40,405 nucleotides of DNA from Chitinispirillum alkaliphilum (GTDB taxonomy: Bacteria > Fibrobacterota > Chitinivibrionia > Chitinivibrionales > Chitinispirillaceae): NCBI GenBank assembly GCA_001045525.1, contig LDWW01000030.1, positions 1-40,405 on the forward strand, read 5' to 3'. The first letter of the stretch is position 1, and each line of letters begins with the position of its first letter. The notes below the pieces were generated by a model, which was not told the origin of the DNA, searched no databases, and saw nothing but the letters and a program-made list of their open reading frames with translations. The translations under genes were made by a program, and so were the position numbers. Shown piece by piece: positions 16,101-38,227 of the stretch.

Positions 16101-16250
16101 AAGCTCGACTATGTCCCCCGATGGAATGGGGCGTACATTAAAAGCACCGACATAACTCTCATCGTAAGGAACATCTCTGAGCAGTCTGGCATATCTTATT
16201 CGGGGATTGTTCATAGTACCCTGAACAGTAAAATTAAACTGAGCTTCCAA
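13176..16250 (-). CDS. C-terminal part of a giant secreted Ig-like/FlgD-tailed protein (separated from its N-terminus by a frameshift)
   Basis: 1024 aa from a TTG at 16250 that has no ribosome binding site. Protein-like coding in this frame continues upstream through IIPEDNLFYTGN to the G run at 16311-16319. There it would join the beta-helix protein of the other frame, so the true gene is probably 13176-17763. Domains visible: a beta domain (about 1-105), a Big_1-like domain (about 230-335), and one copy of the module found twice in the 1938-aa neighbour (GRVGVRFPVVIEA, DSIVLYWP). These are followed by PGIDSAFYYDTNADGIVDN (EF-hand-like) and TVRDRAAPVI. The same tail follows: IYDKLGNIVYT, WDLRNRNGR, GTYLLIANV. 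It has no signal peptide of its own, which supports the split-gene reading. Confidence 0.8.
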   Translation of the reverse strand: MEAQFNFTVQGTMNNPRIRYARLLRDVPYDESYVGAFNVRPIPSGDIVELNIPPTPISIGSNNITFSGVSSIGEYAFVELVIEGEDESGRPVTSDVGFLPYRSLETELEVQVLDLQGNPIPGNRVRAGHHVMLRITPTRNGEPFIHDINHVRVSLGGNRTLFDASTDEALQIDQITHLLSSQETVYFTTIPPSGENEIVRVSAYWENPQNPNQSLPFLGASDPITILPGDPYRVEFDNPPSNRTGIAPPTLNFGDNFDVEISVRDEYGNRVDQSAGIIIESLQPEIGDIVGSGVGTSNEEGRVQFEATVTGGLRDDLFDLRAIIAGNPNSADTAAIRVGEARNRLAIFYENPLGTRTEEVRGRVGVRFPVVIEAHGGIGGTQLQTNVNSEISFTLTPSANLRVYQTQESAEPITQTRLTEGRAVVWITGVDLVTNGRIAVSPVDDITLLGTERAQIYFTPPPSGIEHGIVFANNGYGRLDSMAVFYTQPLSDKPDSIVLYWPREEPQYRRKAYGEQLEWDSANPTLVAVRFSEPFGEGYTSFQSTNRLGTHYYTSPGATNQIITRFDVIDSIGPLITSATLVERLTPGVDTIIASFSESINPESLRGETLLLRKAGFDYEIPLNVISAISEDGRVRFIIEDNGELSPAEHDLLRFNPGSGVRDARHGATVHPENRPVALNMRQVPPGIDSAFYYDTNADGIVDNVIIWLNKEENISNLTFTFSWTLGNTTGEISGEAHSYGDNSVIAVNVRDAFNNSVDNQTSGNMTVTINSTDYDRAVTGTVRDRAAPVITNAVYEFGEGENRIDTLTVVFSESVMENQLTATPFSFISPITGYQLELGYLGRGSGGSYRFSVNSTLESFVFPNNGDSIFINPNSGVRDGDENIQNNPANRRVPLEVRDPPINLRLIVGPSPVRVGADGVYLPSTGRSHEGLIIQIIGDNTQIFENINAKLDLAIYDKLGNIVYTAPPEAQERSNNGIVMTWDLRNRNGRFVSEGTYLLIANVTNLDAGRVILSERVKFAVVK

Positions 16251-17763
16251 ACGGTTTCCGGTATAAAAAAGGTTGTCTTCGGGTATGATTCTGGCGAGTG
16301 TGCTCTGTTGCCCCCCCCCTCTGAATCGCTCCGATATCTGCTATTTGGCCATCGCCTCCAAGCATTCCGATAAGATCGCAGCCCCCCCCCGCTATATGCT
16401 GACTAACGAGTGGGTTTTGCCAGTTGGGCACGAGAAAATCGGGACTGTTCGGGTCTTCGGAAAGAAACTCCGTTTCGATCCAGCGGATATTTGCAGATGC
16501 AGGAAAACCGGTTGTATCTTCAGGGCTTAATATCAAAGCCCCCTGTTGGCCACTTTGAGGTCTTCCCATGTTCTGCATGATATTAGGGATCCCTCCCCCA
16601 GCAGGTGGGGGCTCCTGCATAGCAGCATATACAGAATGCCTCATCCTCTTTCTGAACCGAAATTCAAAGGGAGGATGCCACAGCTCCCATCCCTCATACC
16701 TGAACTGGCTTCCGTATCCGTTATTCAAATAGTGCCTTGGCCGCCCGTAGATATTGTTGAAAATCAGATGCTGTACCCCTGCAGCCCAGAAACCAGCGTA
16801 ATTAAGATAATTCCTGAAAAAAGTGTTGTTGTATATGGCCAGAGGTGAGAGGAGATTTTCTTTAAAAGCAATAGCCCCTCCATACTGATATGCGTTTTGG
16901 TTTGTAACCTCCCCATCTGTGATATTGCGGGCATCCACCCTCATCACCTCCTGAAGGACACTGGGAGTATGATAGTTGTCATAGATCAGGTTGTAGCGTA
17001 TTGTGGAACCTAGATCCCACATCATCTCAAAATAGAGCCCCCAGGAGTTTGAGTGTATACGGTTGTTTTCGATAAGATGTCCTCCGCCCTGACCAAAAGC
17101 GGAAAAAGGGATAATATCTTCAACATCGATATCCCCCGGATTAGGATTGCCGAAAATTCCTCCCGCATTTCTGTCCTTGACCGCTATACCATAATAAGCG
17201 TTTTTAAACTCACTGTTTCTGACAATTATGTTACCGGTAATATCCAGGGTGAGTGCGGCATTTCCATAGAACAGACCGTAAACACCATGCTCCCCCCCCT
17301 CTTCGGGCCACACCCCGGGGTATCCGAAGGGGTAAGCGCCGCCACCGTCTACGATGATACCGTCGATTGTGACTCCCTGCACTCCTGAGATTCGCAGTGC
17401 ACCGTTACGGTAAAAGGTGATATGCGCCGGGTCTCTGGATTCCTCATAATTCCTGGGGCCCACGTTTACCCTGTCCTGGTATCGTATGGTGGGTTTGTTG
17501 TTTGGGTCTGCAGATCTGAGGGTAAGGTTGTGGAGCCGTTCATCTCTGGAGTTGACACTGATATGGATCTGCTGCTCAGGAGAATAGACAGCGTTGTCCA
17601 GGATTATGATTTCATCACCCGGGCTTGCCGCATTGATGGCAGACTGGATATCGGAGTACTGTCCGCTGCCGTCCTGTGAGACGGTGATCTGTGACTGTGA
17701 GAAAGCCGTATGTGCAGCGATGGCAAGGAAGAAAAATAGGTGGATAAATTTTCTGTCGAACAT
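16234..17763 (-). CDS. N-terminal part of the split surface protein: signal peptide and right-handed beta-helix
   Basis: 509 aa as read. Residues 1-22 are a signal peptide (cleavage near AFS). Residues about 25-480 are a pectin-lyase-type beta-helix. It opens with VSQDGSGQYSDIQSAINAA and DEIIILDNAVYS, followed by PbH1-like rungs such as NNRIHSNSWGLYF and YNLIYDNYH. The fold is common in polysaccharide lyases and adhesins; no catalytic set is identifiable. The helix closes with QIADIGAIQRGG. From the nine-G run on, the sequence (ATEHTRQNH...) is not protein-like and stops after 25 residues, while a neighbouring frame continues sensibly. AGGAG lies about 10 nt before the ATG. A sigma-70-like promoter is about 145 bp upstream. 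Confidence 0.82.
   Translation of the reverse strand: MFDRKFIHLFFFLAIAAHTAFSQSQITVSQDGSGQYSDIQSAINAASPGDEIIILDNAVYSPEQQIHISVNSRDERLHNLTLRSADPNNKPTIRYQDRVNVGPRNYEESRDPAHITFYRNGALRISGVQGVTIDGIIVDGGGAYPFGYPGVWPEEGGEHGVYGLFYGNAALTLDITGNIIVRNSEFKNAYYGIAVKDRNAGGIFGNPNPGDIDVEDIIPFSAFGQGGGHLIENNRIHSNSWGLYFEMMWDLGSTIRYNLIYDNYHTPSVLQEVMRVDARNITDGEVTNQNAYQYGGAIAFKENLLSPLAIYNNTFFRNYLNYAGFWAAGVQHLIFNNIYGRPRHYLNNGYGSQFRYEGWELWHPPFEFRFRKRMRHSVYAAMQEPPPAGGGIPNIMQNMGRPQSGQQGALILSPEDTTGFPASANIRWIETEFLSEDPNSPDFLVPNWQNPLVSQHIAGGGCDLIGMLGGDGQIADIGAIQRGGATEHTRQNHTRRQPFLYRKPFGSSV
16311..16319. repeat. C9/G9 homopolymer at the frameshift junction of the split surface protein
   Basis: Nine C on the plus strand (G9 in the coding strand). 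With nine G the frame runs into a stop at 16234. With eight G the beta-helix frame passes straight into RGGQQSTLARIIPEDN and on to the 1024-aa C-terminal part, giving one protein of about 1530 aa. It is either a slipped-strand phase-variation tract captured in an off state or a homopolymer sequencing error. Similar runs occur at 16382-16390 (C9, in frame) and 17292-17299 (C8, in frame) in the same gene. Confidence 0.85.
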
Positions 17764-19484: not shown

Positions 19485-19925
19485 GTGGAACAGGAATTGT
19501 CCTACATTCTTCTGGTAGAGGATAATGAGAGCCATGCCCTTCTGGTGAAGCGTGGTCTTGAGCAATGCGGCAACAAGTGCAGGCTGGTCCATGTAACGGA
19601 TGGTGAAGATGGGTTGGATTATCTCTTCAACAGGAGAAGTTTCACCCAGGAGAGACGAAACCCCCGGCCCAAGTTTGTGTTTCTGGACCTCAGACTTCCC
19701 AGAATGGATGGGCTGGATGTGTTAAAGGAGATAAAATCCTCCGACTACACCCGTGACATTCCTGTTATCATACTCACAAGCTCAATGGCCGAACCGGATA
19801 TCGTAAGGGCATATTACTACAACGCCAACAGCTATCTGGTAAAACATATAGACTTCTCCCAATTCAGAAAACAGATAATCGACACTGTAGAGTATTGGAT
19901 TAACTGGAACATAACGCCACTTTGA
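19485..19925 (+). CDS. Single-domain response regulator (Rcp1-like)
   Basis: 146 aa, GTG start with GGGGAG about 11 nt upstream. It is a bare receiver domain: acidic pair E12/D13 in LLVEDNESHALL, phosphoacceptor D68 in FLDLRLPRMDG, T98 in IILTSS, and K120 in SYLVKH. There is no output domain. The insert between beta-2 and beta-3 and the ILTSS pattern match the small Rcp1-type regulators that accept phosphate from PAS/phytochrome-like kinases. The kinase gene follows 60 bp later on the same strand, so the two probably form a pair. Output would be through protein contacts or phosphorelay. Confidence 0.92.
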   Translation: MEQELSYILLVEDNESHALLVKRGLEQCGNKCRLVHVTDGEDGLDYLFNRRSFTQERRNPRPKFVFLDLRLPRMDGLDVLKEIKSSDYTRDIPVIILTSSMAEPDIVRAYYYNANSYLVKHIDFSQFRKQIIDTVEYWINWNITPL

Positions 19926-19985
19926 TTTAACGTTTTGACCACTTTTTTTCTCCGGATAAGTCCAAGGGAGAGTGCATCTGTGTTG

Positions 19986-21935
19986 ATGAAAAACAGACCC
20001 TTTTTACGCATACTCCTCTGGAGCGTACCATTTTTCATCATAATCGTACTCTTGTTTCAAAGCCACTCTGGCTACCGCAGACAACAAGAACTGCTGGTTG
20101 AGGTTATCAGGAGCAGAAATAATCATGTCGGGGAGCAGATTCTAATGAGGCTCGACCTGCTGTTTTTCGAACGTGTCAAGGACATAACTCACCTTGCAAC
20201 GATTATAAATAGTAACGGCCTGGAAGAGAGGAGGTTTTTAAGCGATGCAGAAGGAATTTTATCAAGAGAGCCGGGGTATGAGAGTATAGGCTTTTTCTCC
20301 CTTACAGGAGATCTTCTCTTCTCCGTTCCGCAAATCAACACCTATCTGCAGAAGGTCAGTCCCGGTACTGTTTCCAAAGCCTTAGAAGATACCTCTGCAA
20401 TATTTACTCCTCCCATTGCTGTTCAGAATGAGAAAGTATTCACAGTGGGAATTTTAGTTCCTGTTCCACAGACCGGAGTAGCAGCCGGGATGCTGCGGAT
20501 TGAAAAAATCATCCTGGAAGTTATAAAAGAGACTACCCCCTACCCCCAATACGCTGAGGTATATATAGAAAACAGAAGCATATCCGGGTCTCCAATGTGC
20601 AAAGATTCAGAAAATAACACCCGGTCTCAAAGATATGTAACATCCTTTATATCCAAGGAGATAATGGGGCTTCAATGGGGTGTGAGAATTATCAGACCGG
20701 TGGAGGGAAGATATGAGAGGCTTTTTGAAGAGGGCAGATTAAGGTACATAATAACTCAGATTGCAGTTCTATTTGCAGGCGGGTTGTTGTTTCTCTCTTT
20801 TGCCGCCCTTTCAAGGGCTGAGTCGAGTGAAAAGCGCCTTGAAATTTCTGAGGGGCGATACCGGAGACTAACCGAAAACGCAAGGGATCTGATTTTTAGA
20901 TTCAATTGTTCAGAGAAAAGGTTTGAATACGTGAGCCCCGCCTCACTTGACCTCACAGGCTATGCCCCGGAGGACTTCTACTCAAACCCCGCTGTTTTGG
21001 AGCAGATCATTGCTCCGGAGTGGAGGGGGTACTGGGATCAGAGCTGGAAAAATCTTGTTGAGGAGGGAAAAGCGGAGTCGGTTTATGAGTTTAGAATTAT
21101 CGGCAAAGACAAGCAGAGCAGATGGCTCCATTTTCGTGCAGTGGTGATTTTTGGGGAAATGCAAGATCACCCCTTTGCAATAGAGGGAACGGTCACCGAC
21201 ATAACAGAGCTCAAAACAGCCCTCGAGGAACGGGAAAAACTGATAAATGAACTTGAGGCAAAAAACGCAGAACTTGAACGTTTCGCCTACACCATCTCTC
21301 ATGAGCTAAAAACCCCACTTATCACCATACGTGGTTTTTTGGGGTACCTGGTCAAAGAGGCTCAGGAGGGGGATATTGGTGGCTTATATCAGGATGTGTC
21401 ACTTATCAGAACCGCCACCGACACCATGAACAAGCTCCTTGAGGGACTTATTGAACTGACCCGTGTGGGGCGTTCGCCGGTAGAGCCTGAAGTGGTGGAT
21501 CTTGCCGATCTTGCCAGGGAAGTTTTGAATAAATTCAGACGCATTATAAATGAGAAAAATATTGATATTTCTATCTCAGATGATATGCCCCCGGTGTATG
21601 GCAATAAGATGGAGTTTTCCGAACTAATAATAAACCTGATTGAAAACGGGATAAAATTCATGGGAGACAGACCCGACCCCAAAATCCGGGTTGGGTGGTA
21701 CAGGGAAAATCAGGATGTAATTTTTTATGTCCGGGATAACGGTATAGGGATAGAGAGAAAATACCAGGAGAGGATATTTGGAATATTCAACAAACTCGAC
21801 CCCAGATCTGATGGTGCAGGGGTAGGACTGTCTTTGGCCAGGAGGATTGTAGTTTCACACGGAGGATGGATCCGGGTGCGCTCTGAAGGCCCTGGGAAGG
21901 GAAGTAGTTTCGAATTTACCCTTCCCCTGGCCTGA
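19986..21935 (+). CDS. Membrane-bound PAS sensor histidine kinase
   Basis: About 649 aa from ATG 19986; a TTG at 19935 in the same frame is less likely. TM1 lies near residues 8-26. An extracytoplasmic sensor region of about 230 residues follows, then TM2 near residues 260-280. A PAS domain (about 290-410) opens GRYRRLTENARDLIFRF. The HisKA H-box is FAYTISHELKTP (about 435-446). The HATPase has an N-box (ELIINLIENGIKFM), G1 (DNGIGIERK) and G2 (GAGVGLSLARR). All key residues are present. The kinase domain is of the subtype that often pairs with single-domain regulators such as the neighbour upstream. The ligand is unknown. Confidence 0.92.
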   Translation: MKNRPFLRILLWSVPFFIIIVLLFQSHSGYRRQQELLVEVIRSRNNHVGEQILMRLDLLFFERVKDITHLATIINSNGLEERRFLSDAEGILSREPGYESIGFFSLTGDLLFSVPQINTYLQKVSPGTVSKALEDTSAIFTPPIAVQNEKVFTVGILVPVPQTGVAAGMLRIEKIILEVIKETTPYPQYAEVYIENRSISGSPMCKDSENNTRSQRYVTSFISKEIMGLQWGVRIIRPVEGRYERLFEEGRLRYIITQIAVLFAGGLLFLSFAALSRAESSEKRLEISEGRYRRLTENARDLIFRFNCSEKRFEYVSPASLDLTGYAPEDFYSNPAVLEQIIAPEWRGYWDQSWKNLVEEGKAESVYEFRIIGKDKQSRWLHFRAVVIFGEMQDHPFAIEGTVTDITELKTALEEREKLINELEAKNAELERFAYTISHELKTPLITIRGFLGYLVKEAQEGDIGGLYQDVSLIRTATDTMNKLLEGLIELTRVGRSPVEPEVVDLADLAREVLNKFRRIINEKNIDISISDDMPPVYGNKMEFSELIINLIENGIKFMGDRPDPKIRVGWYRENQDVIFYVRDNGIGIERKYQERIFGIFNKLDPRSDGAGVGLSLARRIVVSHGGWIRVRSEGPGKGSSFEFTLPLA

Positions 21936-21974: not shown

Positions 21975-24900
21975 TTAACTGCAACCGGTAAGTGAACCCT
22001 CCTTTTCCAACCTTTTTGGAGAACACTGAGTCTTTTGGAGCTGTTCTGGTTTGTCTGTTTTCGCCAGCTTACTGTGGAGCCGTTCAACCTGGAGACAGAA
22101 AGCTTCTATTCTCGATTCGATTATTTGTGGGAAAGGATTTCCGTCACTTTCAATTGTTAAAAAGGGCAGGAAGTTAATGTTATCCCTGACCTCTGTTTTC
22201 CCCCAAATTTTCTGATCAAGAAACCTTTTGTTTTCAACAGTGGCTTCAGCAGAGAGTACCCCTTCAACTACACGAGTGGGCATGCATGCAAAGGGGCCAA
22301 TCTGTATTGCACCATGGGTTGAGTGGAGAATATCTCTGAAAAAGCTACCTGTTACCAAAATAGCCTCACCGGTAAGTCGGGGGTCAAAAAAGTGTTTGCC
22401 GTAATTTATGATCTCCTTCATGTTTGTCATCTCAAATGTGTAGAGTCCTGAAGTTTCCATAATGCTCTTGATTTTTTTCTCCAGTCTGTGTTGAAGAAAC
22501 ACCCTGGCTCTGAATTCAAGAGTGGATTTAATATCAAACTGAGCTTCAAAAATCCCCTCATTTACATTATAGTCACAGTACTCCAGCCACTCAAAGACAG
22601 GAGCTTTTCTGACCACTATGTCTTTGCTTTGAAGTCGCTGGATGAGATCCTGGGAGGAGAAGTTGTCTCTTCGCACAAAAATCTCTCCCAGAAGGGATAC
22701 CTTTTTTGCCTTTGAAAGGGGGTATTTCAGAGGAATCAAAGAGAGTTTTTTTGCCGCCTCCCCAAGTTGCCGGAAGAGATTACCGGTGTGTCCCGATTTG
22801 AACATTGCCACAATCTTACCCCACTCGCCGGAAAAGATTTTCTCAGCTGATTGTTTGTCGACTGCCAGCACATCCAGGGCGTTCTTAACATCTTCCATAC
22901 AGTCTGAGACTATAATGGATTTGAGTACATTGAGAGCATCTTTAACCGCAAGTCCTGCATATCCGTTTTCGTTTGTCAGTGACAGCAGGGCTACATTGGG
23001 GATTCGCAGTTTTTCAATTAATCTGCTAATGTAAATGTTATATTGAGTGAGCCGGCAATTGCCCCCGCTTGTAGGCATAAAGTACACCAGATTTTCATCT
23101 TCCCTTTTCTTTTTTATGTAGTTAAGAAGACCTCCGGTTGTTAATATCAGGGGCAGACACTCTTTACAGGATGCATGCCCTTTTCCAAGCTTCATCACTT
23201 CACTGTCGTAAACAGGGGTGCTTGAAGCTCTGATTCCTGCACCGGAGAAGGTGGCTGCGATCAGTTCGCTTGACAGTTCACCCATCGACGGGAAAAGGAG
23301 ATGCACGCTTGGATCGGTTAATTCAAACCGCGAGTTTTGGCTCGATATAAAAACCGGTTTCTTTTCATAAGAGATCCGGGCAGGAATGAAAGGTGTCTGC
23401 TGCACAGGGTTTTTTTCCAGTTTTCTGAAAATATCGACGATGTCAAGAAATGCTTCGATTCTGGTATCCACTCCCGCATCCGCAGTATGGCTGTCGAGTT
23501 CCAGTGTAAGGGATGGTTTGCTTTTCATGATATCCCTAAAGTAGCCGGTAAGAAAAGAGTCCGGGCCACAGCTGAAATTTGTAATATATGCTCCGAAGAG
23601 CTGCGGGTGTCGCTCAACGAAAAGAGCTGCTTTCATTATATTCTGGCCAATTGCCCAGTTCATATCCATCGGGCACTTCTCATTTTCAAAAGGAAGAAAG
23701 TCCCATGGGATAATCGTTATGCCCCGTGATGCGAATTTGGCGGGTATTCCCAAATTCCCATCTTCGGAGAATGCATTGTAGGGTCTTCCAAACAAAACGA
23801 TTGCAGTTTGGTCGGGATCGCTCTCGATATCCTGTAAAATTTTCTTACCATGCTGTTTTAGTTTCTGGTTGAATCTGTTTTGCGCCTTAAGGGCTTTATG
23901 GTAAGCTGATGCGCCCTCAAATTCTGTGTATCCGCAGGCGTGGGCAATTGAGGCAAATACAGAGGTTTGGGATTCGTAGCCCTGGGAGAAATCCAGCACC
24001 GGTGAGAGAAACCCGGTAGATATCATCATATCTTTAAAAGCACTTTTTAGAAAGTAAGGTTCACTTTGCAGAAGAAGGCAGGTACATTGATGTTCCCTTC
24101 TTCTTGTTGGGGCATTTTCAACATACAACTCAACCACTTTGGGAAGAAAAAGGAAATCAGGTTTCTCCTCTAACAGGCTGTAGAGAGCTCCGTGTGCTAT
24201 TTCTGCCGGAAAGCAGTAGGAGGAGCGCTTTCGTTTCATCCCCTTGGGGTCTATTCTGCCCGAGGTAACCACTTTCAGTCCCAGCTCTGAGAAAAAGGTG
24301 GAGTATAATGGAAAGAGCATATTGGTTAAAAAAGAGCGGTTGATTCCAACTGTCTTGGAATCATTTCCGGCTTTCTGAGTGAAATCATTGAACAGGAATT
24401 GTTGTCTTTTTGCCACTATATTGTATTTGTCTCTGTCGTGTTTGACATTGTGCAGCTGGTTATAGTACTTGTTGCAGGCGCCGCCGAAAGGATACTTTTT
24501 GTTTTCTATTATTAATGTGTTAATCTCACAGTTTCTGTCGCATCGTTCCCCACCCCCTGCGCACCTGAACTGCCTGCCCTGAGCCACCTCTCTATTAATT
24601 AGGGTACCGAGATTAAAAGATGCCTTTTCGATAAGACCATCGTTAATTCTTTTCTTAATTTCAAGAGCCACCCCAAATGCCCCCATCAGCCCCGGCTCAG
24701 GAGGAACCACAATAGGCTTACCTATAAGATTTGCCATCGCCAGAGGGATAGCTTTGTTGTAGCACACCCCACCCTGCATAAAGATTTTCTCTCCACAGGG
24801 TCGCTGTCCCTTGACTCTGTTTACATAGTTCATACAGATAGAGTACACCAGGCCAGCAATGATATCTTCTTTTGATATCCCCTCATGTGAAGCGGTCTGG

Positions 24901-26333
24901 ATGTCAGAAGAGATAAAGGCAGCACACTGATCATTGAAATTTGGAGGAGCGGTGCTTCTGAGTGCAATAGATTCTATTTCTCTGTAGCCGGTGCTGAGAG
25001 TCTCCCCTGCGGATTCTTCAAGAAACGAACCTGTGCCGGCCGAACAGGCTTCATTCATTGCGTAATCTGAAGCCACACCATTGGTGAGGAATGTGTATTT
25101 GGCGTCCTGTCCCCCGATTTCAAAAATTGTGGTAACATCCTTGTCAAAGAAGGCAGACGCTGCAGCATGGGCTATTATTTCATTAATAACTCCCCTTGTG
25201 CCGGCATGAAGTCCCGCGATTTGCCTTCCGGAGCCGGTAGTGCCCAGTCCGACAATAGTAACAGGTACGGGGATCTGTTTTAGGAGAGCTTTGTAGCAAT
25301 TCCTTGATGCCTCAATGGGGTTGCCGTTTGTCCTTAGGTAAACAGATGCCACTATGGAATTATCCCTGGTTCTGAGTGCTATTGCTTTGGTTGTGGTTGA
25401 TCCAACATCAAGACCGATTATGAGTGTATCATCTTTCCGTGCTTTTTCGATTTGAATCGATTTAAAGTCAACCATTGATTTACTATCAAGAATAGGAGGA
25501 AGGGAGTTAAACGAAACCGAATCTTTTTTAAACAGATCATTTTCATTTAAATGAAGGGGTGATTTTTGTATCATGGCATACCAGGCAGCACCTACAGCTT
25601 CGAAAACATCTGCAAAGTCGGGAACAATCAATTTGCTGATATTTTCTCCCACCATTCTCATAATGACATTGTTATTAGTGATTCCGCCCGTGGCAATCAG
25701 GCCATTATCCGGGACCTTTTGCAAAAGGTCGAGAATTTTCTCACTCATCATACGGCAAAGTCCGGCAGACACCCTGCCTACCGGTATACCTTTGTTCAAT
25801 GCATGGGTACAGTCACTTTTGCAAAACACTGAACATCTTCCTGATACACTGAAAGGTTGTGCCTTTTCTGCCAGCTCTACTGCTTCTTTGGTGGAAATGT
25901 CCATGCGCTGAATTTGTTGAAGAAAAAACTCTCCGGTCCCGGAGGCACATTTATTGCCCGTTTCAACCGAAGAGATTGCTCCATCCTGGTCTAAGGCGTA
26001 TATAATGAAATTTTCTGCACCAAGTGAGGCAACGGCCCCGACATTCTCAAAAATGTTATTCTGTTTCATAAATTGAAGAGCATGTTCAACCGATTCAGGC
26101 TCAGTAATTGATGGAGCATTCACCATTGTTCTGAATTTCCTGCCTGTTATCATGATATGATCATGAGTTTTGAGATCGATTTTTTTGATCAGGTTCTTAA
26201 AAGTTTCTCTTGGATTGCCATTATGAGGGGTATTCCATTTATTCGTAATTTTTGTAATATCGTCAGATTTTGTTAACTGAACAGTCTTGATAGCAGAAGA
26301 TCCAAAACATATTCCCAGGGATTTAGTAGACAT
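21975..26333 (-). CDS. Giant acyl-CoA dehydratase activase-like protein with two ASKHA ATPase domains
   Basis: 1452 aa. ATG 26333 has GAGGAG 6 nt upstream. ASKHA domain 1 is about residues 1-260 (GICFGSSAIKTV; CASGTGEFF; SVFCKSDC). ASKHA domain 2 is about 305-570 (GLDVGSTTTKAIAL; EIGGQDAKY; NEACSAGTGSF). A Cys-rich link follows at about 585-640 (CAGGGERCDRNC). Next come a DUF2229-like domain from about 660 (VGINRSF; EHQCTC near 747) and a C-terminal part with more conserved Cys (FSCGPDSF; ASCKECLP). Related activators (HgdC, BadF) use ATP and a 4Fe-4S cluster to inject an electron into 2-hydroxyacyl-CoA dehydratases or benzoyl-CoA reductases. No dehydratase subunit lies nearby, so the client is unknown. 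A sigma-54 promoter precedes it. Confidence 0.9.
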   Translation of the reverse strand: MSTKSLGICFGSSAIKTVQLTKSDDITKITNKWNTPHNGNPRETFKNLIKKIDLKTHDHIMITGRKFRTMVNAPSITEPESVEHALQFMKQNNIFENVGAVASLGAENFIIYALDQDGAISSVETGNKCASGTGEFFLQQIQRMDISTKEAVELAEKAQPFSVSGRCSVFCKSDCTHALNKGIPVGRVSAGLCRMMSEKILDLLQKVPDNGLIATGGITNNNVIMRMVGENISKLIVPDFADVFEAVGAAWYAMIQKSPLHLNENDLFKKDSVSFNSLPPILDSKSMVDFKSIQIEKARKDDTLIIGLDVGSTTTKAIALRTRDNSIVASVYLRTNGNPIEASRNCYKALLKQIPVPVTIVGLGTTGSGRQIAGLHAGTRGVINEIIAHAAASAFFDKDVTTIFEIGGQDAKYTFLTNGVASDYAMNEACSAGTGSFLEESAGETLSTGYREIESIALRSTAPPNFNDQCAAFISSDIQTASHEGISKEDIIAGLVYSICMNYVNRVKGQRPCGEKIFMQGGVCYNKAIPLAMANLIGKPIVVPPEPGLMGAFGVALEIKKRINDGLIEKASFNLGTLINREVAQGRQFRCAGGGERCDRNCEINTLIIENKKYPFGGACNKYYNQLHNVKHDRDKYNIVAKRQQFLFNDFTQKAGNDSKTVGINRSFLTNMLFPLYSTFFSELGLKVVTSGRIDPKGMKRKRSSYCFPAEIAHGALYSLLEEKPDFLFLPKVVELYVENAPTRRREHQCTCLLLQSEPYFLKSAFKDMMISTGFLSPVLDFSQGYESQTSVFASIAHACGYTEFEGASAYHKALKAQNRFNQKLKQHGKKILQDIESDPDQTAIVLFGRPYNAFSEDGNLGIPAKFASRGITIIPWDFLPFENEKCPMDMNWAIGQNIMKAALFVERHPQLFGAYITNFSCGPDSFLTGYFRDIMKSKPSLTLELDSHTADAGVDTRIEAFLDIVDIFRKLEKNPVQQTPFIPARISYEKKPVFISSQNSRFELTDPSVHLLFPSMGELSSELIAATFSGAGIRASSTPVYDSEVMKLGKGHASCKECLPLILTTGGLLNYIKKKREDENLVYFMPTSGGNCRLTQYNIYISRLIEKLRIPNVALLSLTNENGYAGLAVKDALNVLKSIIVSDCMEDVKNALDVLAVDKQSAEKIFSGEWGKIVAMFKSGHTGNLFRQLGEAAKKLSLIPLKYPLSKAKKVSLLGEIFVRRDNFSSQDLIQRLQSKDIVVRKAPVFEWLEYCDYNVNEGIFEAQFDIKSTLEFRARVFLQHRLEKKIKSIMETSGLYTFEMTNMKEIINYGKHFFDPRLTGEAILVTGSFFRDILHSTHGAIQIGPFACMPTRVVEGVLSAEATVENKRFLDQKIWGKTEVRDNINFLPFLTIESDGNPFPQIIESRIEAFCLQVERLHSKLAKTDKPEQLQKTQCSPKRLEKEGSLTGCS

Positions 26334-26411
26334 AATGCTCCTCGCTAAGGTTAGTCGGTTAATTGTGAGAGAGGGAAGAGGTTTGAGTTTGAGCCCGGAG
26401 TGGTTTGGCCT

Positions 26412-26427
26412 TGCAAATACTGTGCCT
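26412..26427 (-). promoter_or_regulatory. Sigma-54 -24/-12 promoter of the activase gene
   Basis: On the minus strand AGGCACAGTATTTGCA matches the consensus TGGCACG-N4-TTGCA at nearly every position. GG and GC are separated by exactly 10 bp. Transcription would begin about 65-70 nt before the ATG at 26333. This would need a bacterial enhancer-binding protein such as the FHA-GAF-AAA+ protein in this window. Pattern match; not proven. Confidence 0.65.
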
Positions 26428-26431
26428 GTCC

Positions 26432-26445
26432 GGGGGGGGGGGGGG
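26432..26445. repeat. G14 homopolymer abutting the activase promoter
   Basis: Fourteen consecutive G on the plus strand (C14 in the direction of the activase gene), ending 4 bp upstream of the sigma-54 -24 element. Runs of this length are slippage-prone. Changes in length would alter the spacing between upstream activator sites and the promoter. Confidence 0.85.
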
Positions 26446-26693
26446 AATTCTCAGTTGTTTTGGCAGATATACCTTGGAAAAATGATCATGCCGTAACAGA
26501 AAATCGAGCCGTTGAAAATCTGTATCCCACAATGATACATGATGGAATCGAAAAAATCCCTGTAAGTGATATTTGCACCCGATCCGCTGTTTTATACTTC
26601 TGGGTTACCAGTCCGAAATTGCAGGAAGGTCTTTTTCTCCCGTCGAGCTTTTTGCGAGGAAGGGGTGGGAAGGTGGTAATGAAATAATTTGTT

Positions 26694-27212
26694 TCAATCA
26701 AAAAACGATTCTGATTTTTTATGTATTCTCAAATCTGGTTCTTCATTTAAATTCAAAATGGAAATACTATCCCCAGCGCTTGTTGTGACCGAATAACTCT
26801 CGAAATCGCTCCTACTGATTTCGATTTTTACACTGTTTTCTACTTGAAATGAAAAGTATACTTTCGCAAACACCTCTACAAAATCATGTGCCTCCATATC
26901 TGGGAATAATATTCGTAATTCTTTGATATCCACTCTATTATTAGGCTCATGTAATAGCTTTTTGTTCTTTTGATCTGCAAAATAAATTAGAGGCGTTTTA
27001 GGTGAAAACTTGGGGGCGACCACCTTTAGCAATATAAAATCCCTATTTTTTACAAGAGTATCAACAAGTACATCTTTTTTCGAAACACGAATATTTGTTC
27101 TTCGTATGTAGTCTGTAACTATATCCATTTTCGCACATGTCTTTCCAGTAAACATAACAACCAATAGAGCAAAAGTACATTTTATTAACACCATATTACC
27201 GTATTTTTTCAT
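26694..27212 (-). CDS. Secreted protein of unknown function, candidate immunity partner of an Rhs toxin
   Basis: 172 aa. Residues 1-28 look like a signal peptide (KKYGNMVLIK, then a hydrophobic core, cleavage near TCA). The rest is a mixed alpha/beta domain without recognised motifs. Its ATG overlaps (ATGA) the stop of a short open frame ending MNQGKLHTCPKRSNK, which appears to be the end of the upstream Rhs remnant. A gene coupled to the 3' end of an Rhs/polymorphic toxin is often the cognate immunity gene. A secreted immunity protein would imply a toxin acting in the periplasm. This is inferred from position only. Confidence 0.6.
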   Translation of the reverse strand: MKKYGNMVLIKCTFALLVVMFTGKTCAKMDIVTDYIRRTNIRVSKKDVLVDTLVKNRDFILLKVVAPKFSPKTPLIYFADQKNKKLLHEPNNRVDIKELRILFPDMEAHDFVEVFAKVYFSFQVENSVKIEISRSDFESYSVTTSAGDSISILNLNEEPDLRIHKKSESFFD

Positions 27213-27720
27213 TTATTACTTCTTTTTGGGCAAGTGTGAAGTTTACCTTGGTTCATAATACCGCCTGTATTGTCGTCAAAACCAAATAGCGCATGTCCCA
27301 TCAACGCTCCAAGTATTGTCTGTATAAACCCCTGCACATTGCTCATTAATAACTACCGCACCCAAGGCATTACTATTTCCTCTAATCGAAGGGTATGATG
27401 CCTTATCAATATCAGTCAAAAGCAAATATACATCAGTATTATCCCGTGTCCCTAAATAACGCCCCCCCCCAAAACCCTACCTCTTTAACAGACATTTTTT
27501 CTGCGCCACTATATCTAATCTGGGTTTCAACTAGAGAACCAAAATTATCTGGCAAAGACTGTGAGCCAACGTTCCTCAAATAAATGGTGTTTTTTCTACC
27601 ATCTGGATCAACAAATATGATTGGGTTGTTGAGGGCAGTATAAACACCAGTTCTCACGTGCTGGGTCAACAGCCGTCCACATCCCACCTCCGCATCATAG
27701 TACCTTGCTCCAAAAAGGTA
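27209..27720 (-). pseudogene. Rhs/YD-repeat protein remnant: core end and variable C-terminal domain, frameshifted
   Basis: After a stop (TAG at 27723-27721) the frame reads YLFGARYYDAEVG, then NNPIIFVDPDGRKN, the hallmark end of an Rhs core. The downstream part would be the variable toxin-like tip. At a G9 run (27470-27462) the frame shifts. As read it ends ALFRDTG at 27439. With eight G it continues RYLGTRDNTDVYLLLTDID and stays open to 27276. A third frame (27346-27209; MSNVQGFIQTILGALMGHAL) ends overlapping the next gene's ATG. The upstream part of the gene is missing; a 570-bp repeat begins about 100 bp away. It is either a decayed fragment or one with assembly errors. Confidence 0.7.
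27462..27470. repeat. C9/G9 homopolymer at the Rhs frameshift
   Basis: Nine C on the plus strand. Removing one base restores an open, protein-like frame across the next 190 bp of the Rhs remnant. This is the same one-base surplus seen at 16311-16319. Confidence 0.75.
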
Positions 27721-27817
27721 CTATAGTTCAACCCGGCAACCACTTCCCCTGATCACCCCAAAGGCCGTATCAAAGAGCTACATTTGTTAAAACATCTGGC
27801 AAAAAAACGTCTGGATG

Positions 27818-28386
27818 GGCAGGATTTACAGGATGAACAGGATAGTTATTTTTACTCCAATCCCAAGCCAAACACGCCTTAGTTTTTTCTAAATAACCTC
27901 CTGAAATCGAGCTTTTTTCCACCAAAGTTAATAAGCAACCCGATATCCAGATCATAAGCAGTTAAATAATTCAGTCCCTGTGCCAGATGCACATCCTCTA
28001 ATTGTATTTTTGCTTTGATCTCGACCATTATTCTCTTTTCAACCAGAAAGTCAACGCATCGTGAACCGATTTCATGCTCTTTATAGTAAATAGCCTTTTC
28101 CTGTTCACGGGAGTAATATATACCTGCTTCCTTCAATTCTATAGCAAGTGCCCGTTGGTAGATAACCTCCTGGAAGCCATTGCCAAGAGTGTTATGCACA
28201 TTCATAGCACATCCGAAAATACTGTGAGTTAATGGGTCATTAATACTCATTTTTTACACCTTTTTTGATTCTCAACACAAAAGGAAAATATTGTGAAAAA
28301 AGTCGGAATCAGGGTATTAAGGATTGCTGGATTTACATGATATACCTTTGCTCATGTCAACACCAGCGGATCATCCCAAAGGTTCA
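27818..28386. repeat. Direct repeat copy 1 (569 bp) carrying a GxxExxY gene
   Basis: It starts GGCAGGATTTACAGGATGAA and ends CATCCCAAAGGTTCA. It matches the copy at 28584-29153 with about five substitutions and one single-base indel. Both copies lie in the same orientation, 197 bp apart. Outside these borders the two flanks differ, so this is a defined unit rather than two diverged genes. Confidence 0.9.
27879..28250 (-). CDS. GxxExxY protein, PD-(D/E)XK nuclease-like, copy 1
   Basis: 123 aa. The name-giving motif GFQEVIY is present after HNTLGN. The C-terminal half has the nuclease-fold pattern: a D in CVDFLVEKR, then E-x-K in MVEIKAK, and Q in LAQGLNYL. AGGTG lies 6 nt before the ATG. The family is widespread, often in repeated units, and has no settled function. 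This copy has F12 and C77 where copy 2 has I and L. It lies inside a 569-bp direct repeat. Confidence 0.88.
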   Translation of the reverse strand: MSINDPLTHSIFGCAMNVHNTLGNGFQEVIYQRALAIELKEAGIYYSREQEKAIYYKEHEIGSRCVDFLVEKRIMVEIKAKIQLEDVHLAQGLNYLTAYDLDIGLLINFGGKKLDFRRLFRKN

Positions 28387-28583: not shown

Positions 28584-29153
28584 GGCAGGATTTACAGGAT
28601 GAACAGGATAGTTATTTTTACTCCAATCCCAAGCCAAACACGCCTTAGTTTTTTCTAAATAACCTCCTGAAATCGAGCTTTTTCCCACCAAAGTTAATAA
28701 GCAACCCGATATCCAGATCATAAGCAGTTAAATAATTCAGTCCCTGTGCCAGATGCACATCCTCTAATTGTATTTTTGCTTTGATCTCGACCATTATTCT
28801 CTTTTCAACCAGAAAGTCAACGAGGCGTGAACCGATTTCATGCTCTTTATAGTAAATAGCCTTTTCCTGTTCACGGGAGTAATATATACCTGCTTCCTTC
28901 AATTCTATAGCAAGTGCCCGTTGGTAGATAACCTCCTGGAAGCCATTGCCAAGAGTGTTATGCACATTCATAGCACATCCGATAATACTGTGAGTTAATG
29001 GGTCATTAATACTCATTTTTTACACCTTTTTTGATTCTCAACACAAAAGGAAAATATTGTGAAAAAAAGTCGGAATCAGGGTATTAAGGATTGCTGGATT
29101 TACATGATATACCTTTGCTCATGTCAACACCAGCGGATCATCCCAAAGGTTCA
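28584..29153. repeat. Direct repeat copy 2 (570 bp) carrying a GxxExxY gene
   Basis: It is nearly identical to 27818-28386 and has one extra A near its right end. The 197-bp spacer between the copies (28387-28583) has no gene. The sequence right of this copy (29154 on) differs from that right of copy 1, which marks the unit's edge. Confidence 0.9.
28645..29016 (-). CDS. GxxExxY protein, PD-(D/E)XK nuclease-like, copy 2
   Basis: 123 aa, differing from copy 1 at two residues only (I12 and L77). The same GFQEVIY motif, D...ExK pattern and ribosome binding site are present. The frame is intact in both copies, which suggests a recent duplication or recent gain of the unit twice. Confidence 0.88.
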   Translation of the reverse strand: MSINDPLTHSIIGCAMNVHNTLGNGFQEVIYQRALAIELKEAGIYYSREQEKAIYYKEHEIGSRLVDFLVEKRIMVEIKAKIQLEDVHLAQGLNYLTAYDLDIGLLINFGGKKLDFRRLFRKN

Positions 29154-32824: not shown

Positions 32825-34603
32825 TCAGGATCTGAACTCATCAGCACTAATACCGTACTCCTGCATTTTTTTCATAAGCCATTTACGATCAATATCAAGA
32901 ATTTTGGCTGCCAGAGATATATTCCCTTTACTTTTATTACAGGCACTCACTATAGCGTCTTTTTCCGCTGCAATACGCGCATCCCGTAGTGTTGCGGTAT
33001 TTTCTATTATAGTATTTTCCCCCATTTGCGCGAAATGAAGGTGTTCCCTTTCTATCCTGTTATCACCTGAAAGTAAAATTGCCTTCTGAATTACATTTTC
33101 CATTTCTCTGATATTTCCGGGCCAATCATAGGTTAAGAGGGCATTTCGTGCTGAAACACTGATAGTCTTTACCGGTAATCCAAACTGCAATGAGTACTTG
33201 TTGTTGAAATAGTCCGCAAGAAGGGTTATATCAGCCCCTCTCTCTCTAAGCGGAGGAATTTCAATTGTTAAAACATTTAACCTGAAGAAAAGGTCCTGTC
33301 TGAATCTCTTTTCTTTCACCTCGGTTTCAAGATTTCTATTTGTCATAGCAACTATACGTACATCGACCTTTACGGTTTCGGTTCCCCCAACTCTGATAAT
33401 TTCAGATTCCTGAAGAACTCTGAGTAACCTGACCTGCAGTTGCAAAGGCATTTCCCCTATTTCATCCAGAACAACCGTACCCCCGTTAGCAGATTCAAAC
33501 AGACCGGTTTTTTTCTGTGTTGCCCCTGTAAACGCACCTTTTTCATAGCCGAAAAGTTCTGATTCTATTAAGTTCTCCGGTATAGCGCCACAGTTTATTA
33601 TTTTAAAAGCTTTGCTTGACCTTGAAGAGTATTCGTGTATTAACTTCGCCATAAACTCTTTGCCAGTCCCGGTTTCACCGAGAACGAGAACGGGACTGTT
33701 TGTACGAGCTTGTCTTTTAACTAATTCAATTACCTGAACCATCCGTTCACACTCATATATAATTGAGCATGAGGAGGGAAGGTTTGCTTTTTGCAGTCTC
33801 TCGATAGTTTCTTTCTGTCTGCGTTTTTCATCAAAATTAGACAAAATTTCTGAGAAAAGGGGTATCAAAACATCACAGAAATCCCTGTCTTTTTCACAGA
33901 ACGGAATATTATTCTGCAATCTGTCCAAATAAAGATAGCCCAACACCTTCTCACCCTGATAAAGTGGTGAACACATAACAGACGCGATATAATTTCTTTT
34001 CAGAGATGTACAGCTGTTTGTATCTTCACACCAATCTTCATCCTGAGCTAAAACAGTTTTTCCCCTTTCCCTCGCCCAGTCAATTGCTCTGTTTGAGAAG
34101 CGATCCAAACCCGACTCCAGGGGATAGCGGGCTACAGTTTTCATGCTCCCTTCTGATCCTTCAGCTACCAGCCTTGCAGCATCACAGTGCAAAAGCCTTG
34201 AGATACTGCAAAGAAGATTACTGAAAAGATCCTGCTTTTTATCTTTTAGTAAAAAAACTATCGTTTTTATAAGCTCAACAACCGGCTCTCCCACATGTGG
34301 TGTAAAATCCTGATACACCATATCATCTCCAAGTTCATCAAAAACAAATTCCTGGTTTCCAAAGGAGATGAGATCTCCGTTCTTCAGTTTTTTTTCATCG
34401 TTAAGCTCTGATCCATTAACCTTTATTGAAATTTCTGAATCAAGTTTCTGAACCAAAAAACTGCCCTTTGTAAAAAGCAGGTGAGCAATAAAAGCTCTGC
34501 ACTTATTAATCTTTATCTGACAATTTTTCGATGATCCTATGGTTATAATTCTACCCTTCAGAAGATGGGCATTTCCCTGCTTATCTACCAATTTAGGTGT
34601 CAT
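32825..34603 (-). CDS. FHA-GAF-sigma54 activator (bacterial enhancer-binding protein)
   Basis: 592 aa from ATG 34603 (GGAG 8 nt upstream; a GTG at 34612 is less likely). FHA domain about 1-85 ([13 protein letters not shown]), which in this family binds phosphothreonine. GAF-like domain about 110-265. AAA+ domain about 285-520, with Walker A GETGTGKE (about 308), intact sigma-54 contact loop GAFTGA (about 358), Walker B VVLDEIGE and arginine finger [10 protein letters not shown] Fis-type helix-turn-helix is at the end ([19 protein letters not shown]). It is the last gene of a six-gene operon, 27 bp after a Ser/Thr kinase gene. The kinase is therefore a natural source of the FHA signal. Confidence 0.95.
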
Positions 34604-34630
34604 TCTGTTCACTCCGAAAGTTCAGGTTAA

Positions 34631-35977
34631 TTATGGTAATTTTATATATCTAACCTGAAAAGGTAAAAGTTCTATTCTTTCATTACGTGCAACACTCATA
34701 TCAGAATTATAAACAGTCAACCAGTGTGCTCCCTGCGCAATCTCTATACCCTTTTGCAAATCCTCTTCATTCAATTTTTCATTACCGATTTTCACAGTGT
34801 AGCCTTCTGACTGCAGTACAAAATTCAATCTTGCCTTCAATGATTTAGGTGAATCAACTGTTTTGAATGTAACCGGAAAATTTTGAAAATCCCGATATGA
34901 CCGTTCGGGCAAAAACGATATCCGAAATTCCTCTGTTTTCTCCAGGGCAACAGCTTGGGGATTTCCGGCACTTTGTTTTCCTGCTAAAAACGACAATACC
35001 AAGAAAATTATAACCGCCAGAAATGCTGAAACTTTGGACACAGCACATCTCATCCTGTGTTTCTTTTTCCTTTGAGAAAATTCCCTAACTAACTGGAGTG
35101 CCTCTCTGTTTTCCGGATCGATTTCAAGACACTCAACCAGATGGGGGTAACTTTCATCAAATCTTCCGTTATAAATCAACTGTTTTGCTGAGAGGAGTAA
35201 TCTGTTTGAAAGGTTTTCATTCAGTATTTTCTCTACCTGTTTTTTCCACCCACACTCAAGTTTAATCTCTTCGATTCCATTCAACCAGTGCAAAAGGGCA
35301 GCATTGGCATCCTCAAGTCGCTCATCAGGGTTGACTTTTAGCAATGGTGACAACAGTTCTATTTTACTGTGCTTAATAATTTTTGAGATGATCCTTCCGG
35401 CTGAAAATATATCGGCTTTAAAAAAATCTATATCTCCACCACACTCCCATACCTCAGGTGCCATATACGCGGGAGTGCCCTTAATATTCATGGACATTGA
35501 ACGTTCACCGTTCAACACATCCTTTGTAAAACCAAAATCCACTAAAAACGTCTCGCCCTCTGAAGTGAAGAGAATGTTTTCGGGTTTAAGATCACGGTGA
35601 GCAAATTTAAGTCTGTGCAATTCAGCTAAAGATTTCAGAAATGCTGTCGCCAGAGAGAACCGCTCTTCCACAGAGAGATCGGTCTGCAGGAGTGATGAAA
35701 GGGAAACGCCTTTGATCCACTGCATTACTATGCATACATGCTTTCCTTTCCATTCGAATGCATCAAACACCTGAGGTATACACTGCGCCTCTATTCTTGC
35801 TTGCACCCGCGCTTCTTTGAGTAGTTTTTTCCTGCTTTTTGCATCCTTTTCTGTTATTATCTTTACAGCAACAAGCCTGTCAAGTGCTGATTGTTTAACA
35901 CGATAAACTGATCCGAACGCACCTTCTCCTATGCGCACGGGTTGCGAAAATTCTTTGGGAAGTGCTGGTTCAATCAT
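34631..35977 (-). CDS. Transmembrane Ser/Thr protein kinase
   Basis: 448 aa from ATG 35977, which overlaps the stop of the TPR lipoprotein gene by 8 nt; AGGAG lies 11 nt upstream. Kinase domain about 10-235: GEGAFG (17-22), K39 in VAVKI, HRDLKPEN (catalytic D129), DFG (D147), and APE (173-175). All catalytic residues are present. A TPR-like segment spans about 255-300. The membrane segment is about 315-332. A periplasmic C-terminal domain (about 340-448) is PEGA-like at best. The kinase therefore faces the cytoplasm with a sensor outside, and the next gene encodes an FHA-containing activator. Confidence 0.93.
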   Translation of the reverse strand: MIEPALPKEFSQPVRIGEGAFGSVYRVKQSALDRLVAVKIITEKDAKSRKKLLKEARVQARIEAQCIPQVFDAFEWKGKHVCIVMQWIKGVSLSSLLQTDLSVEERFSLATAFLKSLAELHRLKFAHRDLKPENILFTSEGETFLVDFGFTKDVLNGERSMSMNIKGTPAYMAPEVWECGGDIDFFKADIFSAGRIISKIIKHSKIELLSPLLKVNPDERLEDANAALLHWLNGIEEIKLECGWKKQVEKILNENLSNRLLLSAKQLIYNGRFDESYPHLVECLEIDPENREALQLVREFSQRKKKHRMRCAVSKVSAFLAVIIFLVLSFLAGKQSAGNPQAVALEKTEEFRISFLPERSYRDFQNFPVTFKTVDSPKSLKARLNFVLQSEGYTVKIGNEKLNEEDLQKGIEIAQGAHWLTVYNSDMSVARNERIELLPFQVRYIKLP

Positions 35978-36647
35978 CTTTTCTAACACTCCTCATCTCG
36001 CTTTCTGCTACTGCAAACCAGTACAGAATATCCTCATCTTCCGGTTCAATTTTTACTGCTAACAGCCACCATTTATGAGCCTGTGGGGTTTCCCCAAGCT
36101 CATAATGAATCAGACCCAAATTGAATAACAGTGCAGCGTTTAAACTGTCAATATTTACAGCACGCTGGAAAATCTCTTTTGATCGGGTGACCTCACCTAA
36201 TCTGAAATAGATAATACCGGCACTGTTAAGGGCGTCAACATTTTCTGAGTTGTATTCTATGGATCTGGTAACTGCCCTCAATGCTTCAGAAGTGTCTCCA
36301 GCCTTTAGAAGATGAGTTGCCCGTTTGTTCCAAATTTCAGACAATAAGGGTTTTAACTCCCCTCCCGGGTTGATATTCTGTGCAGCTTCAAGGTGAAGCA
36401 ACCCCTTTTGCCACAATGAAGCATTTTCTTCAGTGTGTACGTGTGCCCTTTGAAGTAAGGTTTTACCCATACCCAACCTTGCCTGGTAATCTGCAGGATT
36501 TTTAAGCAGGGCGGAATGAAAAAAATATTCCGCCATCTCATAATCACCTAATTTAAGACAGATATTTCCCTTTTCGACTTCTGAGCTGCCACAACCCAAC
36601 AAGGCTATACTTGCTATTACAAATAGAAATGTAAAACTTTTTATCAT
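35970..36647 (-). CDS. TPR-repeat lipoprotein
   Basis: 225 aa from ATG 36647, which forms TGATG with the stop of the upstream gene; AGGAG lies 3 nt before. The lipoprotein signal ends LLGC (C19). At least four TPR-like units follow, e.g. GDYEMAEYFFHSALLKNPAD, SEALRAVTRSIEYNSENVDA and RSKEIFQRAVNIDSLNAAL. It is probably a periplasmic or outer-membrane-anchored adaptor for the operon's other envelope parts. Not related to a specific known partner. Confidence 0.85.
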   Translation of the reverse strand: MIKSFTFLFVIASIALLGCGSSEVEKGNICLKLGDYEMAEYFFHSALLKNPADYQARLGMGKTLLQRAHVHTEENASLWQKGLLHLEAAQNINPGGELKPLLSEIWNKRATHLLKAGDTSEALRAVTRSIEYNSENVDALNSAGIIYFRLGEVTRSKEIFQRAVNIDSLNAALLFNLGLIHYELGETPQAHKWWLLAVKIEPEDEDILYWFAVAESEMRSVRKDD

Positions 36648-38227
36648 CAACTCCTCAATCTATTCAACTCCATCCTCCAATTGGCTCTCAGTTGAAATGT
36701 AAGCGGTTTTAGTTCAACCGGAGCATTTTGAGGCATGTTAGTGAAACTCCTTCTTAAGTTTGCAATCAAATGAAGTGAATTGCAAGCACTCAGATTATAT
36801 CTGAAAGATAGCGATGACTGTAAGGTATGATCGATTCTTCTTTTCTGAATTGAAAGAGGTTTACTTTCAAAAGTAAGTTCTGAACTTGCCCTGTCCAAAT
36901 CCGTTGCCAAATAATAGCTCCCGTCTCGACTATAGATAACCGATTTTGGATTTCCCCCAATTGTGGGCACATTGGTCCTGGCAGTATCTAAATATCTCAA
37001 ACGATACCATTGATGAATGCCGGTGTAAACATTAATGTTATACCCAAAGTTAACCCCGGCATTAAATCTTCCCGCAGAGTAACTGACTCCCTTGGACATA
37101 CCTAACTCAACACGGCTTTCAGGTATATAGGTGGTAAGCAGAAGGTCGTCTCTTAAGGTTTGAAGTTGAAATGGGAAATTTACTGTCTGAGGTGTAGAGA
37201 AGGAGCTGTCTTCATAGTATACGCCGTCATCATAGTAAAAAAGATTTACCATCGGATCATAGGTGAATTCAATCGCTTCAGTATGCAATACAGAAATACG
37301 GGATAGGAAATTCAAACTAAGTTTTTGATTTAATATCCGGCTGTTGAGTGAATTGAATGAAATCCTCACTACATTCTCAGTATCTTCTCCATGCTCAAAT
37401 TCAGAGCTAAACCTGTAGTAATGCACCCAATTATTAACAATTGCTAGTGTGTGGAGGTCGAAGTTGTGAGCATTAGTACGCGTACCACGGTAATTCAATT
37501 TGCTTTTAAAAGTGTAGCCTGTGTTGATATTTTGGATAAAATTTACACCTCTGATAAATGCAGTCATTTCGGTTTCGAGTGAATCACCGATAGAATTTGC
37601 TTTAAATGGCTGAGTGAAACGGTTCTGTCTTATCAGGCCTGCAGCACCCAGAAGAATAGATTTTTTACCGGTTAGGGGTATTTGCCACTCAACTTCTGCA
37701 TCTCCAAAGCCCCCAGGCAGATTTGAAACGAAGGGCCCAATATCCCAGTATGGCAGATAGTTTATTGGTGTAACTGATTCTTTCAGGTACAGAGCCCCCA
37801 GATTCAAGGTAAGCCGGGGGAATAAATTATTCCTCTTCTCCCCGAATTCAGGGATAGAGTCAAGGAGTTTTGATGCCTCGTTTTTCCAGCCAAGGATTGA
37901 ATAGATCACATGCCGCTGTTTAAGAACACTCTCACGCAGGTTCTGTGAAACACTCTCACTTGTTGCAAGATTTAGGGCAAGTGCAGTGTCAACAACACCT
38001 TTTGAAAGGTATAGTTTACTCCACAGATAATATAAACTATCCTCTGACATTCCAAATGCAGTGGCAGTTTTAAAATAGTAAAGAGATGAGTCATGCTGCT
38101 CAGTATCAAAATGTTCAAGCCCTTTTCTGACAAGAGAATCAATACTGGCAGCATTAGCCAGAACAGAAGGGATGCAGATAAAAAACAGCAAAACCGAATG
38201 AATTAAAAACCAACTGAACCTATTCAT
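36647..38227 (-). CDS. Outer-membrane protein: TPR-like N-terminus and beta-barrel C-terminus
   Basis: 526 aa. Signal peptide about 1-25 (cleavage near ANA). Residues about 30-130 are helical TPR-like repeats. From about 135 to the end, alternating aromatic/polar strands dominate (e.g. RLTLNLGALYL, FQLRANWRMEL), typical of an outer-membrane barrel. The layout recalls TPR-porins, but no family is recognised. The ATG at 38227 has only a weak Shine-Dalgarno. It is 30 bp after the preceding gene and coupled (TGATG) to the TPR lipoprotein gene. Confidence 0.75.
   Translation of the reverse strand: MNRFSWFLIHSVLLFFICIPSVLANAASIDSLVRKGLEHFDTEQHDSSLYYFKTATAFGMSEDSLYYLWSKLYLSKGVVDTALALNLATSESVSQNLRESVLKQRHVIYSILGWKNEASKLLDSIPEFGEKRNNLFPRLTLNLGALYLKESVTPINYLPYWDIGPFVSNLPGGFGDAEVEWQIPLTGKKSILLGAAGLIRQNRFTQPFKANSIGDSLETEMTAFIRGVNFIQNINTGYTFKSKLNYRGTRTNAHNFDLHTLAIVNNWVHYYRFSSEFEHGEDTENVVRISFNSLNSRILNQKLSLNFLSRISVLHTEAIEFTYDPMVNLFYYDDGVYYEDSSFSTPQTVNFPFQLQTLRDDLLLTTYIPESRVELGMSKGVSYSAGRFNAGVNFGYNINVYTGIHQWYRLRYLDTARTNVPTIGGNPKSVIYSRDGSYYLATDLDRASSELTFESKPLSIQKRRIDHTLQSSLSFRYNLSACNSLHLIANLRRSFTNMPQNAPVELKPLTFQLRANWRMELNRLRS

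Follow-up and report, generated by a model that had tools for sequence, protein, structure and literature searches.

A 14-base poly(C) tract beside a well-supported sigma-54 promoter of an activase gene in Chitinispirillum alkaliphilum: a possible length-variable spacer

The gene for an acyl-CoA dehydratase activase-type protein of C. alkaliphilum is preceded by a well-supported sigma-54 promoter, and a run of 14 C residues is placed beside the core promoter on its upstream side. On balance, and with no great confidence, we favour the reading that the sigma-54 promoter is conserved and that its upstream arm contains a young C tract prone to slippage, which would make the tract a length-polymorphic spacer with weak and graded effects rather than an evolved on/off switch. 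The stretch analysed (the window, 40,405 nt) is contig C30 of a 4.43-Mb draft genome in 160 contigs (G000). The following features of the region are referred to below.

21975 to 26333, minus strand: gene for a 1452-aa acyl-CoA dehydratase activase-type protein with BcrAD_BadFG/CoA_E_activ matches and DUF2229; ATG start with a GAGGAG ribosome site
26334 to 26411, minus strand: leader of 78 bp between the element and the ATG
26412 to 26427, minus strand: sigma-54 −24/−12 element AGGCACAGTATTTGCA
26432 to 26445, minus strand: C14 homopolymer (G14 on the plus strand), at about −31 to −44 if the GG of the element is −25/−24, a numbering inferred from the element
26521 to 26539, no strand assigned: perfect inverted repeat TGTATC-N7-GATACA, a candidate activator site centred about 105 bp ahead of the −24 GG

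By pattern search, AGGCACAGTATTTGCA, which the initial annotation had named as the best sigma-54 match, was found to be the sole match to NGGCAYN5TTGCW on either strand of the 40-kb window. The GG-N10-GC spacing is kept, and the first base of the −24 box is not T. When up to two mismatches to TGGCACN5TTGCW were allowed, 19 matches were detected in the window against 18.95 expected. As this two-mismatch scan is at the chance level, the motif alone proves nothing, and the element is carried by its location and by the comparative evidence. The genome contains one RpoN gene and 12 matches above the cut-off to the Sigma54_activat profile (ten strong and two weak), one of which lies in the window at 33260-33763. 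Genome-wide, 78 elements were detected against 4 for the reversed pattern, the corresponding counts being 57 against 15 in the same-genus genome G001 and 84 against 22 in G007; by a loose rule, an ORF starts within 320 nt downstream at 73 of the 78 sites.

The same type of element was then found in the upstream 300 bp, on the right strand, for three of 14 close homologues (0.012 in shuffles; 0 in antisense), namely TGGCATACTCCTTGCA at −66 of the same-genus orthologue in G001, AGGCATGTTTTTTGCT at −87 in G006, and TGGCATTGATATTGCA at −246 in G019. It was found for none of 13 far-clade homologues. Since 11 of the 14 close homologues carry no such element within 300 bp, not every member of the clade has this gene under sigma-54 control. 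In G000 itself, an element (AGGCACACCAGTTGCA) also stands 174 bp upstream of the second full-length activase gene (C8:74302-78603). A comparison of G000 with G001 gave 29 pairs of sigma-54 sites located ahead of homologous genes, with identity above 45% for 27 pairs and with the activase gene included; among the others are genes that we take to be flagellar, thioredoxin-like, small-heat-shock-like, and glmS-like. At the same place, sigma-70 promoter matches were at the chance level only, and this candidate was rejected. With RpoN, the EBPs, the genome-wide set of elements, and the recurrence of the element ahead of close homologues and of the paralogue all supporting it, the sigma-54 half of the earlier reading is now well supported, and the predicted promoter is held to be real. 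The 78 sites form a candidate sigma-54 set that is partly conserved in the same-genus genome and includes flagellar and housekeeping-looking genes; this sequence-based list is now available for the lineage.

The G14 run was located exactly at 26432-26445 of the plus strand (C14 on the gene strand), ending 4 bp ahead of the element, in agreement with the initial annotation on both points. The order on the gene strand is C14-GGAC-AGGCACAGTATTTGCA. The length is taken from a draft assembly and may be wrong; as it stands, 14 C residues are long enough for slippage in a simple-sequence-repeat promoter. Runs of at least 14 occur only twice in the 4.43-Mb genome, the other being an 18-mer at C6:114213-114230. 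The genome carries 38 G/C runs of at least 9 (merged from 67 positions), of which 24 are of 9, nine of 10, three of 11, one of 14, and one of 18, so that the C14 tract is the second longest. For the window, G9 or longer was observed at 9 positions against 0.33 expected, and none of 100 dinucleotide shuffles reached 9, while A/T runs reach at most 8 even though the window is 43% GC. Four of the 38 genomic runs lie in the window (at 16311, 16382, 26432, and 27462), against 0.35 expected at the genome rate.

The excess of long G/C runs was also observed for the 69 sigma-54 loci of G000 (187 kb), with four runs of at least 9 against 1.06 expected and two of at least 10 against 0.27. For A/T runs of at least 10 in the same loci, one was found against 3.5 expected, and A/T runs of 5-9 were above expectation too. 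G001 showed the same excess of long G/C runs, and neither genome of the genus showed an excess of A/T runs of at least 10. The long G/C-run excess was not seen in G007 or in the activase loci of other genomes. As to sequence context, seven of the 38 long G runs in G000 directly follow a run of at least 4 T (for example L037 5214-5231, which is C6:114213-114230, and those in L090, L020, and L018) and only one follows A; in G001, 1 of 18 long G runs directly follows at least 4 T.

Retention of the tract at orthologous promoters, a supporting though not strictly defining property, was not observed. Upstream of 27 homologues (up to 450 bp scanned; loci L052 and L066, which are without the N-terminus, stand outside this count), no G/C run of at least 8 was detected, and the only one of at least 7 was a C7 at −393. 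The promoter of the same-genus orthologue carries only C5 and C4, in a C-rich stretch. For the 360-bp intergenic region, the loci compared gave the region itself, matches through the run, a single weak match of 25 bp, and nothing else. Tracts at other orthologous sigma-54 promoters also differ between G000 and G001: one promoter has G8 in G000 and G5 further off in the relative, and another has C8 in the relative and none in G000, the two genes being presumably glmS-like and YtxH-like, respectively. A structured RNA or terminator at the tract was rejected, as no Rfam match was found in 25900-27900 and one weak terminator-like site (26800-26824, plus strand) was at the chance level.

For the sigma-54 polymerase, DNA looping is required together with an EBP bound at a distance of about 100-150 bp upstream, and the activase promoter is like classical sigma-54 promoters in its GG-N10-GC core and in the presence of RpoN and EBPs in the genome (PMC7057263). 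As the activator reaches the polymerase by DNA looping, sigma-54 promoters should be sensitive to helical phase. For the activase promoter, we propose from known sigma-54 biology that RpoN-RNA polymerase would bind the −24/−12 element and that an EBP would open the promoter from an upstream site. The 14-bp poly(C) may have been gained recently in this species, between the core promoter and the EBP site. Each base added or removed by slippage would turn the upstream arm by about 34 degrees as well as displace it, and the phase between the EBP site and the core would change with the core untouched; since the C run is adjacent to the core element and not within it, the −24/−12 spacing is unaltered. 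The tract length probably varies, with a probably minor influence on expression, and an evolved switch is less likely. The switch half of the initial annotation, by which changes of helical phase would give graded or switchable activase expression, is thus far supported only in part. Helical-phase sensitivity could readily be tested with a natural series of one-base length differences next to the −24 box.

A convincing activator site upstream of the activase promoter was not found. Upstream of the 77 other sigma-54 sites of G000 and of the 57 of G001, nothing closer than 2 mismatches to TGTATC-N7-GATACA was detected. By estimate, chance alone would roughly account for such an inverted repeat in a stretch of this length, and this single occurrence was dropped as evidence for a conserved activator site.

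The position of G/C runs relative to the −24 boxes bears on whether the tract is a coincidence. By a rotation test in G000, runs of at least 6 ending within 15 nt upstream of the element were found at 6 of 78 sites (rotation mean 1.4, p 0.002) and runs of at least 5 at 9 of 78 (p 0.0015), the 15-nt bin having been picked after the data were seen. Without the window's own site, five of the 10 remaining runs lie in the last 15 of 120 nt (p 0.004), under a binning different from that of the rotation test, which gives one run more. The enrichment was not reproduced in G001, where the same test gave 2 of 57 for runs of at least 6 (p 0.2) and 3 of 57 for runs of at least 5 (p 0.67). Among 24 family genomes, C8/G8 was found at 6 distinct places within 0-25 nt of NGGCAYN5TTGC, five of these being followed by a correctly oriented ORF, against 2 places at 50-75 nt (p 0.14). 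A further G10 ends one base before TGGAATGGTTTTTGCT, and the gene downstream of it is, as we take it, PAC2-like. Controls for a general promoter effect consisted of 47 upstream regions and 21 sigma-70-like elements, too small a number to decide. Taken together, the counts are suggestive of G/C runs standing beside −24 boxes more often than by coincidence in this genome, without establishing it.

Another reading is that the tract is a neutral by-product with no effect on expression, the genus gathering long intergenic G/C runs and one of them having fallen here by chance. We consider this rather unlikely. It agrees with the 38 genomic tracts of at least 9, most of those of at least 10 lying outside convincing genes, with C11 or longer runs in 23 of 31 relatives (own genome counted; very many in some), and with the absence of the tract from the homologues. 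It is opposed by the concentration of G/C runs next to the −24 boxes in G000, an enrichment that also exceeds what a purely neutral spacer would predict and therefore counts against the favoured reading as well. If the tract is neutral, it cautions against taking every promoter-near homopolymer for a switch.

Evolved phase variation of the promoter is unlikely in our judgement. By this mechanism, slippage of the C tract would reset the distance and helical face between the EBP site (or alpha-CTD/IHF contacts) and the sigma-54 core, and subpopulations would differ in activase level. The enrichment beside the −24 boxes, the 6 against 2 places in the family genomes, and the second case of the G10 before TGGAATGGTTTTTGCT are in its favour; the failure of the enrichment to recur in G001, the p value for 6 against 2, the loss of tracts at orthologous promoters, and the position of most tracts of at least 9 away from sigma-54-like sites are against it. 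The gene, moreover, encodes an enzyme activator and not a surface antigen.

Phase variation draws further support from known repeat-tuned promoters. The fim3 and fim2 promoters of Bordetella pertussis are of the sigma-70 type. In the upstream region of both promoters there is a run of about 14 C, the tract length sets the activator-to-polymerase geometry, and for fim3 one C more or less changes transcription (PMC10172299). In length and position, the tract of the activase promoter resembles the fim3 poly(C) and also the T-tract next to the −35 box of Helicobacter pylori sabA, a homopolymer directly upstream of the upstream core box, for which a rheostat by axial alignment was proposed (PMC10172299; PMC4081817). 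In Neisseria nadA, the number of TAAA repeats alters the spacing of distal sites, and looping by IHF was proposed (PMC2791445). In contrast to the activase promoter, which is of the sigma-54 type and known from its sequence alone, fim3 and fim2 are activated by BvgA~P with the tract tied to defined BvgA sites (PMC10172299), sabA has T instead of C, a sigma-70 promoter, and UP-like elements shown by footprint (PMC4081817), and nadA has a tetranucleotide repeat and the repressor NadR and is not under sigma-54 (PMC2791445). A sigma-54 promoter tuned by a homopolymer, or with one beside −24, was not recognised in the literature searched, including PMC7677240, PMC2846917, and PMC4814513; most subscription journals lay outside its scope, and this is no proof of absence.

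A broader proposal, which we hold to be quite doubtful, is that sigma-54 promoters of the genus recurrently grow G/C runs just upstream of the −24 box, which would serve as mutable rheostats of enhancer-dependent transcription and make up a slippage-tuned set. If true, such a set would contrast with the repeat-tuned promoters compared above, which use other promoter and regulator types.

There is only a slim chance that the run length is an artefact of assembly or sequencing. The genome is a draft of 160 contigs, and contigs C11, C21, C33, C49, C56, and C62 of the relative G010 begin exactly in C runs, so that such runs seem to break assembly. However, the flank on the gene side is clean and functional-looking, and runs of 14 and 18 bases are rare in this genome rather than rampant, while many relatives have such runs. 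Translational phase variation, in which the C run would become part of the coding frame through a start codon located ahead of it, is hardly credible and was rejected. The activase frame does have no stop between the one just ahead of the tract and the ATG, but a clear ATG with its own GAGGAG ribosome site follows the tract at 99 bp. The alignments of all 14 close homologues, moreover, begin at residue 1-4 of the window protein, and for 13 of these homologues an ATG is called there.

Several other features of the window were noted. At 32825-36650, a sigma-54 activator with FHA and GAF domains adjoins a Ser/Thr protein kinase and a TPR protein, and this arrangement suggests that the predicted FHA-GAF EBP is under phosphorylation-dependent control. 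A receiver-only response regulator and a PAS histidine kinase (19485-21935) are convergent with the activase gene. The tracts at 16311-16319 and 16382-16390 are two G9 runs about 60 bp apart. In this region (16234-17763 and 13176-16250), a secreted beta-helix-like ORF loses frame near a G9, and a long same-strand ORF in another frame takes over directly. This would fit a single large surface protein that is broken or phase-variable at the G9, or else a mistake in the assembly. Two ORFs, each of 123 aa, lie at 27879-28250 and 28645-29016, and the first of them matches PDDEXK_3; as TGGCACAGGGACTGAA is present in both stretches, they probably represent a tandem duplication.
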